Assembly (NCBI GenBank): GCA_947454025.1
Contig: CANGIZ010000021.1
Span: 1 to 32,772, forward strand
Origin: Bacteroidota bacterium
GTDB lineage: Bacteria > Bacteroidota > Bacteroidia > Chitinophagales > Chitinophagaceae
Direction: 5' to 3'
DNA: 32,772 bases
Shown piece by piece: positions 2,801-5,387 of the stretch. Every line of letters begins with the position of its first letter. The stretch's first letter is position 1. The position numbers were made by a program, and so were the translations under genes. The notes under the pieces were generated by a model. It was not told where the DNA came from. It saw only the letters and a program-made list of their open reading frames with translations, and made no database searches.

Positions 2801-3265
2801 ATGAGTATGACCATCTTCTTTAATAAAGCTGACAAGTCTATGACCCTTGGCAATCGAGTGGCGCTAAAAGCCTTTCTCGAAAAGCAAATGAAAAAAGAGG
2901 GAATCCGCATTGAGTGTCTTCAATATGTTTTTTGTTCTGATAAATATCTGTTGGACATAAATAAGCAGTTCTTAAACCATGATTACTATACTGATATTAT
3001 AAGTTTCGATCTATCTGAAACCAAGGGTGAATTAATAGGAGACATATATATTAGTGTGGACCGTGTAAAAGAAAATGCTAAAACCTTAAAGACCACCCTA
3101 GGAAATGAGCTGTTAAGAGTGATTTTTCATGGAGCTCTGCATTTTTGTGGGTACAAGGACAAAAAGCCAGCCGATGCCAAGCTAATGAGGGCGATGGAGG
3201 ACAAATGGCTGAAGGCTTACTTGAAGAGTGTTCCACGAGAAGGCGCAAAGCGTCTGATGAAATAA
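2801..3265 (+). CDS. ybeY: endoribonuclease YbeY, rRNA maturation factor
   Basis: Zinc-dependent endoribonuclease involved in 16S rRNA 3'-end processing and ribosome quality control. The 154-residue protein carries LNHDYYTDIISFDLSE and GDIYISVDRVKENA, both standard YbeY signatures, and the metal site HGALHFCGYKD near residues 110-120. The textbook site is HGxLHLxGYDH with three His. Here Asp stands where the third His would be, a form I recall as usual in Bacteroidota. The gene diverges from the feoA-like gene across about 100 bases. Residue 3 is also Met, so the start could be 2807. The coding end carries a parS-like half-site at 3229-3236. Confidence 0.93.
   Translation: MSMTIFFNKADKSMTLGNRVALKAFLEKQMKKEGIRIECLQYVFCSDKYLLDINKQFLNHDYYTDIISFDLSETKGELIGDIYISVDRVKENAKTLKTTLGNELLRVIFHGALHFCGYKDKKPADAKLMRAMEDKWLKAYLKSVPREGAKRLMK
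3229..3236 (+). other. parS-like half-site inside ybeY
   Basis: TGTTCCAC, the left half of the parS palindrome found 51 bases downstream, continues as GAGAA instead of completing the palindrome. It may be chance or a degenerate copy. Confidence 0.25.
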
Positions 3266-3273
3266 CAAACTCC

Positions 3274-3301
3274 TTCAAGTGTTCCACGTGGAACACTTGA
3301 A
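3274..3301. other. parS: parS-like ParB-binding palindrome, site 1
   Basis: A perfect 28-base palindrome centred between 3287 and 3288. Its inner 16 bases, TGTTCCACGTGGAACA at 3280-3295, equal a known chromosomal parS form (Pseudomonas type) and fit the general parS consensus TGTTnCACGTGnAACA. It lies just after ybeY. ParB loads at such sites, usually near the origin, to segregate the chromosome. No T-run follows, so a terminator role is unlikely. Confidence 0.75.
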
Positions 3302-3319
3302 TAGATATAGAAAGAAATG

Positions 3320-3366
3320 CTATTTCGAGCGAACTTTGAGCGAAGCGATAGAGAGTCGAGAAATAG
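3320..3366. repeat. Bacteroidota-type intergenic inverted repeat
   Basis: Imperfect inverted repeat with CTATTTC (3320-3326) and GAAATAG (3360-3366) as outer arms, and GAGCG and GTCGAG motifs inside. It resembles the scattered intergenic repeats of the ATTTCGAGCG...TCGAGAAAT type often seen in Bacteroidota genomes. Only one copy is present in this window. Confidence 0.45.
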
Positions 3367-3412
3367 ACATTTTTTCTATGGTATATATTGAAATACGAAA
3401 ATTATATTACAG

Positions 3413-3439
3413 TGTTCCACAAGAACTCGCATAGCGAGT
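3413..3439. other. parS-like half-site followed by small hairpin
   Basis: TGTTCCAC at 3413-3420 repeats the parS left half and is followed by AAGAAC, a near but one-base-short match to the right half. Directly after lies a hairpin, ACTCGC 3425-3430 with GCGAGT 3434-3439 and a 3-base loop. Function unknown. Confidence 0.25.
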
Positions 3440-3457
3440 GATTAAAATTATAACTAA

Positions 3458-3491
3458 ATATTAAAACGTTCCACGTGGAACGTTTTAATAT
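3458..3491. other. parS: parS-like ParB-binding palindrome, site 2, at mnmG promoter
   Basis: A perfect 34-base palindrome centred between 3474 and 3475, built on the 14-base parS core GTTCCACGTGGAAC (3468-3481) but with C and G in place of the outer T and A. The arms differ from those of site 1, so the shared core rather than a duplication is what is conserved. The right arm covers the position expected for the -33 element of mnmG. Confidence 0.65.
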
Positions 3492-3503
3492 AGATTACCA
3501 TCT

Positions 3504-3511
3504 TATCTTTG
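3504..3511 (+). promoter_or_regulatory. mnmG -7 box, predicts leaderless mRNA
   Basis: TATCTTTG, an exact TAnnTTTG, ends 7 bases before the mnmG ATG (3519), so transcription should start at or next to the start codon. The -33 region would lie in the right arm of the parS-like palindrome at 3458-3491; no clear TTG is present there. Confidence 0.6.
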
Positions 3512-3518
3512 CAACCTT

Positions 3519-5387
3519 ATGTTTCCAAAATACAATGTCATAGTAGTAGGTGCCGGTCATGCCGGATGTGAGGCAGCAGCAGCAGCAGCCAATATGGGTA
3601 GTAAAGTATTACTCGTAACCATGAATATGCAGACCATTGCACAAATGAGCTGTAACCCTGCCATGGGGGGGATTGCTAAAGGACAAATTGTAAGAGAGAT
3701 AGATGCACTAGGTGGTTACAGTGGGATAGTGTCCGATTTAAGTACGATTCAATTTAGAATGTTGAATAAAAGCAAGGGGCCTGCTATGTGGAGTCCGAGG
3801 ACACAGAATGACAGACACTTGTTTGCTGCTAAGTGGAGAGAGCTATTAGAACAAACCCCTAATGTAGATTTTTACCAGGATTCAGTGAATGAATTAATAA
3901 TAAAAAATGGAAAGGCTTGTGGGGTAAAAACAAGTCTTGGGCATTTGATTGAATCAGATGCCGTAGTCATTACAAGTGGTACCTTCTTAAATGGTATTAT
4001 GCATATAGGGGAGAAACAAATTGGAGGGGGGCGTGTAGCAGAGAAAGCGGCTACGGGAATTACCGAACAGTTGGTTTCATTTGGAATGGAATCAGACAGA
4101 CTTAAAACAGGAACACCCCCTAGGGTTGATGGAAGAAGTTTGGATTATACAAAAATGGAAGAACAAAAGGGTGATGAAGAAGTAGTAGGTTTTTCCTATT
4201 TAGACATCCCAAGAGTTAAAGCTGAAAACCAAAGATCTTGTTGGATAACCTATACCGACACGATTGTACACGATATATTAAAAACAGGATTTGACCGAAG
4301 TCCTATGTATGCTGGAAGAATTGAGGGTGTAGGTCCTAGATACTGTCCAAGTATTGAAGACAAAATAAATCGCTTTGCCGAGAGAGAGCGCCACCAGTTG
4401 TTTGTAGAACCCGAAGGTTGGAATACGGTTGAAGTTTATGTAAATGGATTTAGTACCAGCTTACCAGAAGAAGTACAATACGAAGCTCTTCGTAGAGTTC
4501 CCGGATTTGCCAATGCTCGAATGTTCCGTCCTGGCTATGCTATTGAATATGATTTCTTCCAGCCGACACAATTAAAATATACACTGGAAACGAAAGCAAT
4601 TGAAAACCTGTTTTTCGCAGGACAAATCAACGGAACTACAGGTTACGAGGAAGCGGCTTGTCAGGGTATTATGGCAGGGATGAATGCACACCTCAAAATC
4701 AATCATAAAGAACCATTTATCCTACATCGTAGTGATGCCTATATTGGTGTACTTATAGATGATTTAATCGGAAAGGGAACTAATGAACCCTACAGAATGT
4801 TTACATCTAGAGCAGAGTTTAGAACCTTGTTAAGACAAGACAATGCAGATATTAGATTAACAGAAATTAGCCATAAGCTTGGTTTAGCAAGTGAGGAAAG
4901 AGTGCGTAGGGTTGAATTAAAAAACAACGAGGTAGCTGACATTAAAAATATTTTAAATACACACGCTATCGAACCAACTGAAATCAATTCATTCTTAGAA
5001 AGCATTGAATCTGCAACATTAAACGAAAAACAAAAAGCAGCGAAACTCGTTCTGAGACCGAATATCAGCTTACAACAAATAGTAGATAATAGTCAAACTT
5101 TACAGGCAAAATTAGTTGAAAAAGAAATTGAATTTTTAGAGCAGGCTGAGATTCAGGTGAAGTATGAAAGATATATCGAAAAAGAAAAGGAGATCGTTGA
5201 ACGAATGGCATCATTAGAAAACCTAGTTATTCCAGATAGTTTCGATTATGATAAAGTCGCTGCACTTTCTATAGAGGCTTTACAAAAATTCAAAAAAATC
5301 AGACCCATCACCATCGGACAGGCCAGTAGAATTAGTGGAGTTAACCCAAGTGATGTTCAAATCTTAATGGTGTATATGGGAAGATAA
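3519..5387 (+). CDS. mnmG: tRNA uridine-5-carboxymethylaminomethyl modification enzyme MnmG (GidA)
   Basis: FAD enzyme that, with the GTPase MnmE, adds the carboxymethylaminomethyl group to the wobble uridine of several tRNAs. At 622 residues it is full length (E. coli about 629). It opens with the Rossmann FAD motif VGAGHAGCEAA, followed by MSCNPAMGGIAKGQIVREIDALGG and KGPAMWSPRTQNDR; GTFLNGIMHIGEKQIGGGR and LKTGTPPR are present, and the C-terminal tRNA/MnmE-binding region ends in RPITIGQASRISGVNPSDVQILMVYM. MnmE is not in the window. It stands alone after the parS-like palindromes; in many bacteria this gene sits next to oriC or parAB. The coding sequence carries a run of five GCA codons (3573-3587) and a 7-G run (3665-3671) but is intact. 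Confidence 0.97.
   Translation: MFPKYNVIVVGAGHAGCEAAAAAANMGSKVLLVTMNMQTIAQMSCNPAMGGIAKGQIVREIDALGGYSGIVSDLSTIQFRMLNKSKGPAMWSPRTQNDRHLFAAKWRELLEQTPNVDFYQDSVNELIIKNGKACGVKTSLGHLIESDAVVITSGTFLNGIMHIGEKQIGGGRVAEKAATGITEQLVSFGMESDRLKTGTPPRVDGRSLDYTKMEEQKGDEEVVGFSYLDIPRVKAENQRSCWITYTDTIVHDILKTGFDRSPMYAGRIEGVGPRYCPSIEDKINRFAERERHQLFVEPEGWNTVEVYVNGFSTSLPEEVQYEALRRVPGFANARMFRPGYAIEYDFFQPTQLKYTLETKAIENLFFAGQINGTTGYEEAACQGIMAGMNAHLKINHKEPFILHRSDAYIGVLIDDLIGKGTNEPYRMFTSRAEFRTLLRQDNADIRLTEISHKLGLASEERVRRVELKNNEVADIKNILNTHAIEPTEINSFLESIESATLNEKQKAAKLVLRPNISLQQIVDNSQTLQAKLVEKEIEFLEQAEIQVKYERYIEKEKEIVERMASLENLVIPDSFDYDKVAALSIEALQKFKKIRPITIGQASRISGVNPSDVQILMVYMGR

Follow-up and report, generated by a model that had tools for sequence, protein, structure and literature searches.

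What are the two perfect palindromes that lie between ybeY and mnmG in this window (the whole stretch of 32,772 nucleotides of Bacteroidota DNA analysed here)? A first-pass annotation of the sequence had read them as parS sites, the places where the partition protein ParB loads. In ParABS systems elsewhere, ParB loads at parS, clamps and slides, and ParA and SMC segregate and organise the origin. We weighed this reading against two others, and we conclude with high confidence that the palindromes form the parS cluster, or centromere, of a chromosomal ParABS system and are the predicted landing sites of its ParB.

Two palindromes with a parS core

The chromosomal parS consensus of ParABS systems is TGTTNCACGTGNAACA. 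Both palindromes, of 28 and 34 bp, are present as the first-pass annotation described them and share the core GTTCCACGTGGAAC (Table 1), the two exact cores being 187 bp apart. The inner 16 bases of the first do equal a known parS form: site 1 matches the consensus exactly, and site 2 is exact over 14 bp and shows two mismatches, its outermost pair being changed symmetrically to C/G. That chance would hardly produce such a pair was also borne out, with 0.09 matches to the consensus expected in the window at up to two mismatches and two matches in 0 of 100 shuffles. The form TGTTNCACGTGAAACA is tabulated for B. subtilis parS in the part of PMC7022226 that was available. Rfam gave zero matches in the window at gathering scores.

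Site 2 sits at -51, the same place as the mnmG-proximal site in many congeners. Downstream of it, TATCTTTG presumably represents the Bacteroidota -7 box TAnnTTTG of a likely mnmG promoter, whose -33 region site 2 would span. Since this box ends only 7 bp ahead of the ATG (window 3504-3519), the mnmG mRNA may be leaderless. Among 25 compared upstream regions, TATCTTTGCA was found in 15, those without canonical sites.

Table 1. Coordinates of the features discussed. Positions are those of the window unless a locus of another genome is named.
Feature	Position	Strand	Basis and remarks
parS site 1, 28-bp perfect palindrome (14+14)	3274-3301	.	sequence, repeat search
Core of site 1, GTTCCACGTGGAAC	3281-3294		exact 16-bp parS at 3280-3295
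parS site 2, 34-bp perfect palindrome (17+17)	3458-3491	.	sequence, repeat search
Core of site 2, GTTCCACGTGGAAC	3468-3481		outermost pair of its 16-mer is C/G
ybeY (endoribonuclease), flanking	2801-3265	+	PF02130, E 7.7e-27
mnmG/gidA, flanking	3519-5387	+	PF01134, E 5.4e-161; the parS cluster adjoins mnmG in many relatives
Likely mnmG promoter -7 box, TATCTTTG	3504-3511	+	sequence; 12 bp past palindrome 2
Copy of the ybeY 3' end	3411-3446	+	81%; probable trace of a ~184-bp tandem duplication
Probable eroded parS relic in the C-terminal codons of ybeY	3230-3243	+	GTTCCAC intact, right half gone
Second probable eroded relic, GTTCCACAAGAACT, within the ybeY-tail copy	3414-3427	+	sequence; left half GTTCCAC intact
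HNH-A, example in G080	L171 356-967		
HNH-A, example in a named locus	L012 3355-3969		
HNH-B at the ybeY-mnmG place (G016)	L138 587-928		
HNH-B at the ybeY-mnmG place (G069)	L152		

The motif and its ParB in the genome

The genome that holds the window (2.04 Mb in 91 contigs, 86.8% complete) carries the exact motif GTTNCACGTGNAAC in three places, namely sites 1 and 2 and one GTTGCACGTGAAAC on contig C4, and the reversed pattern used as a control has 0 exact matches. When up to one mismatch is allowed the motif occurs in five places and the control in four; because the former count is at control level, only exact matches carry weight. An even scatter, which according to the first-pass annotation would speak against parS, is not what we found in this 86.8% complete genome: the exact sites are few and clustered, two of the three lying at the window locus. 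Across a set of 200 genomes, 121 of the genus and our own among them, the exact motif is present in 118 (own counted) and the reversed control in 30.

A parB gene, without which the prediction would have failed, is present as well. It lies in a parA-parB operon on contig C9, and its product scores above the TIGR00180 cut-off. This ParB has 305 aa with ParB_N, HTH_ParB and ParB_C domains, its closest PDB chains are Spo0J/ParB, and the accompanying ParA is Soj-like, which gives the sites the cognate pair expected of a chromosomal parS. By analogy with known systems, the C9 ParB would load at GTTCCACGTGGAAC, close as a clamp and slide outward, and ParA and SMC would segregate and organise the origin region, near which mnmG lies.

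Sites at mnmG in relatives and position of the origin

We compared the best 80 of 579 named mnmG loci. Upstream of mnmG, these hold 89 exact matches in 77,679 bp, against 36 in their remaining 639,251 bp, and the reversed control has 0 upstream and 0 elsewhere. An exact motif lies within 1 kb upstream of mnmG in 43 of these best 80 of 579 loci. The other 37 have none in that 1 kb (8 with one elsewhere, 29 with none), some of them with short upstream sequence and several from Saprospiraceae. The 29 motif-free loci include some with a short upstream stretch or with one-mismatch sites, and four of them (L012, L014, L021, L025) carry HNH-A, a gene treated below. As a separate observation, nine of the best 80 of 579 loci have a parS site inside the mnmG coding sequence at +381, in the same codon (L018, L019, L024, L027, L028, L029, L031, L038, L082).

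Six named genomes, chosen among loci already with a site at mnmG, were searched whole, and all exact matches were at mnmG (L017 2, L019 3, L039 3, L055 2, L070 1, L082 4), the widest spread being 7.1 kb (L039).

For the position of the origin, GC skew was sampled in two relatives, in 20 stretches of 20 kb each. In the single-contig congener G080 (3.14 Mb), the cumulative minimum falls in the sample at 2.098-2.118 Mb and mnmG at 2.224 Mb, with two equally good placements (1.96-2.10 or 2.12-2.25 Mb); since G080 has no canonical cluster, its skew locates mnmG and not canonical sites. In the complete chromosome of LGM1 (CP075895), the minimum falls in the sample at 166-186 kb and the sites lie at 152.6-153.9 kb, the best fit being 0.19-0.33 Mb and a placement at 3.01-3.15 Mb nearly equal. 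By this proxy, mnmG coincides with the sampled skew minimum or lies close to it in both, as expected of sites in the origin domain. In the portions of the literature available we found nothing on parS at mnmG/gidA in Bacteroidota, and an earlier notice of Bacteroidota parS is possible.

The palindromes could also serve nucleoid occlusion, as binding sites of a Noc protein, or be an operator through which a transcription factor controls mnmG. The Noc-binding form, NBS, has CCC/GGG and parS has CAC/GTG, and the cores in the window are CAC/GTG. The Noc model TIGR04285 scores the C9 ParB at 204.8 bits, though below its cut-off of 315; this ParB lacks K at positions 179 and 184 and keeps R173, a position at which Noc has Q according to the accessible part of PMC7383237. 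The 12 bp between the end of site 2 and the likely -7 box would speak for this alternative, but sites inside mnmG, at +381 in nine of the best 80 of 579 loci, and in the ybeY end of relatives are unlike an operator. We consider this alternative, in either form, highly improbable.

Hairpins and extended arms

To place the arms among congeners, we used 80 upstream regions, some of them shortened by contig ends. They come from 79 congeners, out of 109 besides our own genome in which mnmG was matched. The window's clade is here the 50 regions in which the first 150 residues of MnmG are at least 91% identical to those of the window, and the sister clade is the other 30.

Folded as single-stranded RNA, site 1 reaches -17.7 kcal/mol (z -5.9) and site 2 -18.2 kcal/mol (z -6.2). 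Hairpins of this strength, arms that stay symmetric past the core and a pair of terminator-like matches on the minus strand (0.4 expected) would fit a role at the RNA level, as intrinsic terminators or as hairpins in the ybeY and mnmG transcripts, with a secondary likeness to parS. However, no T-run follows either hairpin on the plus strand, the coding strand of both genes, which makes a terminator function unlikely. Moreover, the core recurs across families and the arms do not, a contiguous extension of at least 10 bp being present at a single site among the 89 from the named loci (L009-L085). A separate hairpin with a T6 stretch (ATTTCGAGCG...GTCGAGAAATAG, ~3312-3375, z -2.3) lies between the palindromes; it is either a ybeY terminator or a dispersed repeat, and G012 has a similar one between ybeY and mnmG. 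Altogether, the palindromes are very unlikely to be RNA elements in the first place, and we keep to the parS reading.

The long arms themselves belong to the window's clade. At least ten further complementary pairs in a row were found at 16 of its 83 sites, against 0.8% expected from random pairing of arms from different sites, and an extension of at least 10 bp at 0 of 26 sister-clade sites. Past the core, the sequence of the arms differs between sites and the symmetry is kept. Extended arms are thus a habit of this clade that preserves palindromy, not sequence. A mutational process such as template switching at inverted repeats is a possible source.

An old duplication and its relics

Since the arms differ, the first-pass annotation had held that the pair is not a simple duplication. 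The arms have indeed diverged, but a duplication is shown by the repeated tail of ybeY. In a repeat search, the ybeY 3' end at 3227-3262 recurs at a spacing of 184 (81% of 36 nt), and the palindromes are alike over 77% of 35 nt at a spacing of 187, in register with the tail repeat. The two sites probably go back to an old tandem duplication whose copies have since diverged; going by the repeat, the duplicated unit would have been a ybeY tail plus parS. Both tail copies hold a half-site (Table 1). In the relatives G002 and G110, YbeY ends VPRGT.., which is what an intact site encodes in that frame, so the half-site inside the ybeY tail of the window is probably a dead parS.

ParB contacts and drift of the site centre

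The parS site and ParB are regarded as very conserved. In the window's clade, both depart from the usual form. Sites were counted with the expression GTTyC-A[CT][AG]T-GrAAC, outside which further-changed sites (e.g. in G020, G042 and G098) fall. The centre ACGT is present in 43 of 83 sites in the window's clade against 27 of 27 in the sister clade, and the central CG is absent from 40 of 83 and 0 of 27, respectively. Of the changed centres, 35 are one-sided (28 ACAT, 7 ATGT) and five two-sided (ATAT); the two sites of the window retain the ancestral centre. Five of the 50 regions in the window's clade have no counted site, two of these five being under 80 bp. Among the genus genomes, GTTCCACATGGAAC is present in 28 of 122, and G012 and G087 have two GTTCCATATGGAAC palindromes apiece.

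For ParB, 60 fetched proteins and that of the window were compared, with Caulobacter numbering via alignment. At positions 201/202/204, all 21 proteins of the window's clade have S/L/K and all 40 of the sister clade have G/H/R, which amounts to a single tree contrast between two clades. The ParB of the window keeps R173, N178, Q162, G170 and K171, shows no Noc-type residues, and departs from the Caulobacter contacts at three positions (S172 to D, G201 to S, R204 to K). According to the part of PMC7383237 that was available, G201 and R204 of Caulobacter ParB touch parS, and ParB and Noc proteins alike conserve R204. Because positions 201, 204 and 172 differ, the affinity of this ParB for parS is something we infer. 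In the window's clade, then, ParB has replaced residues that touch parS elsewhere (G201 to S, R204 to K), and the sites of many relatives have changed at the base pair beside the dyad. We propose that S201/K204 would loosen the reading of this base pair and so permit the change.

HNH-A and a replaced site in the sister clade

HNH-A encodes a protein of ~204 aa from an HNH-like family without a name and has matches in 32 of the 200 genomes; two are weak (G082, G097), which leaves 30, all in the genus. In the 28 genomes with both places known, it is a single chromosomal copy adjoining mnmG, at 31-175 bp upstream in 27 and at 742 bp in G010; G041 (no mnmG found) and G072 are without such a placement. 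It also occurs in 4 of the best 80 of 579 named mnmG loci. In G010, HNH-A is separated from mnmG by a pair of genes that, judged by eye, look like a nucleotidyltransferase (MNT)/HEPN pair (L181 304-960).

Exact canonical sites number 0 in 27 of the 30 genomes with HNH-A and one in each of G063, G080 and G099; none has at least two, and some of these assemblies are incomplete (G060 and G083 under 60%). In the sister clade, 22 of 30 regions have no canonical site and 21 of these 22 carry HNH-A, and eight of the nine regions without HNH-A have 1-5 canonical sites. G081 has neither canonical site nor HNH-A and keeps split-like remnants.

These remnants resemble a 31-bp split element, GTTCCACGnnnCaC-n-GTTyC-n5-GrAACA. 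The expression GTTCCACGnnnCaCnGTTyCn5GrAACAt fits upstream of HNH-A in 20 of 21 regions read, with 35 elements; the fetched stretch of G010 begins downstream of the element, and a genome search recovers its two. Elsewhere it fits 1 of 60 other regions (G006, a one-mismatch site then GTTTT). The left part is exact in 23 of the 30 genomes with HNH-A against 0 of 92 other genus genomes and is nearly always just upstream of the gene (exceptions on G043 C111 and G107 C145); G011 and G067 have none even at one mismatch.

Hidden canonical sites were sought in 10 genomes with HNH-A, where no cluster was found outside mnmG and the counts at up to one mismatch were at control level (36 vs 43 for the reversed pattern). 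The idea that the split element stems from a changed specificity of ParB found no support: the examined contacts are the same in 22 of 22 sister-clade ParBs with HNH-A and in 18 without it, bar D172 and R184 once each.

Residues 46-120 of HNH-A share 34% identity (E 6e-6) with a protein of Azospirillum phage Cd, annotated as endonuclease VII in one of two records, and H78 and N101 are invariant across nine proteins. Pfam, NCBIfam and PHROG gave no match under E 0.2, the profile had a single chance-level match in PDB (E 2.7), 126 pattern matches in viral contigs yielded zero confirmed cases, and the predicted structure has a mean pLDDT of 50. On these results, nuclease activity of HNH-A is a guess. 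Cleavage of cruciforms, as by endonuclease VII-like enzymes on long palindromes, is a weak candidate, given that long arms are absent from sister-clade genomes free of the gene (0 of 26 sites).

HNH-B and the history of the nuclease-like genes

A second and different gene of phage type, HNH-B (114 aa; phrog_2340 endonuclease, E 7e-15), occupies the same place between ybeY and mnmG in two of the 122 genus genomes (G016 and G069), where two copies of GTTCCACnnnnCACATTAACGTTCTACATTAACA stand ahead of it. In both genomes the repeats are changed and canonical sites are absent. Canonical sites are likewise absent, with no HNH-B present, from the genomes closest to these two by ParB (G058, G026, G098). 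The canonical form is therefore lost outside HNH-B genomes too, and this lowers the odds that homing explains it. Among 88 congeners with neither gene, 36 have no exact canonical site and 43 at least two; many of the 36 are from the window's clade with changed centres or are assemblies without mnmG. Sites in the window's clade thus change with no nuclease gene there today.

Treating relatives as independent, a Fisher test of genomes with at least two sites (0 of 32 with an HNH gene, 43 of 88 without) gave p 4.5e-8; an independent-pairs test of the link yielded nothing from its 1-2 informative pairs. A test on the ParB tree (22 rows, quick tree) rejected a single origin for the possession of HNH-A (p-AU 0.0003), a state that requires four changes, two of them forced by well-supported branches. 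Distances between the HNH proteins follow those between the ParBs (Mantel r 0.77 over 19 genomes), which makes an old gain with several losses, each regaining canonical parS, as likely a history of HNH-A as transfer of the whole allele.

The boldest interpretation takes HNH-A for a putative homing element, one that would cleave canonical parS or select against it, so that the centromere of the genus would be under attack and turning over. We regard it as doubtful. The drift of parS centres together with S201/K204 in the window's clade may be an escape from the same conflict. A tamer reading is a clade-specific centromere with an accessory protein. In the accessible portions of the literature, we found no account of nucleases acting at parS.

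Meaning of the locus and comparison with known systems

The palindromes of the window are very probably a real parS cluster, ordinary in kind but with two unusual traits, the extended arms and the altered contact residues of its ParB. What is new lies mostly in the surrounding genus rather than in the window: in the genomes compared, the centromere sites of other species have drifted or been replaced, often beside a small nuclease-like gene. Within a single genus, the window locus and those of its congeners present centromere change as a natural series, from canonical sites, through a one-bp change with substituted ParB contacts, to replacement beside a nuclease-like gene. This series opens to test the joint change of an important multi-copy DNA site and its reader, and the idea of selfish nucleases that target bacterial centromeres.

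Compared with phage HNH and endonuclease VII-like enzymes, HNH-A has a common core (E 6e-6) and HNH-B matches phrog_2340. However, the genes of this genus are chromosomal, single-copy beside mnmG where both places are known, and tied to a missing canonical cluster. The likeness to Noc and NBS is that of a paralogous reader and a related palindrome, but the site core and ParB residue 173 in the window are of the ParB-parS type.

The closest known system is the chromosomal parS of ParABS. The window shares with it the core of 14 bp, its recurrence within a few hundred bp, a position near the skew minimum in relatives and one chromosomal parA-parB operon. The sites differ in lying by ybeY and mnmG, distant from parAB. 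The par operons are usually in the ori domain, as stated in the available part of PMC7022226, whereas in G080 parB is at 1.27 Mb, far from mnmG at 2.22 Mb of 3.14 Mb. Finally, the palindromes are longer (28 and 34 bp) than the 16-bp chromosomal parS, and their ParB has S201/K204 where the usual cognate ParB has G201/R204.
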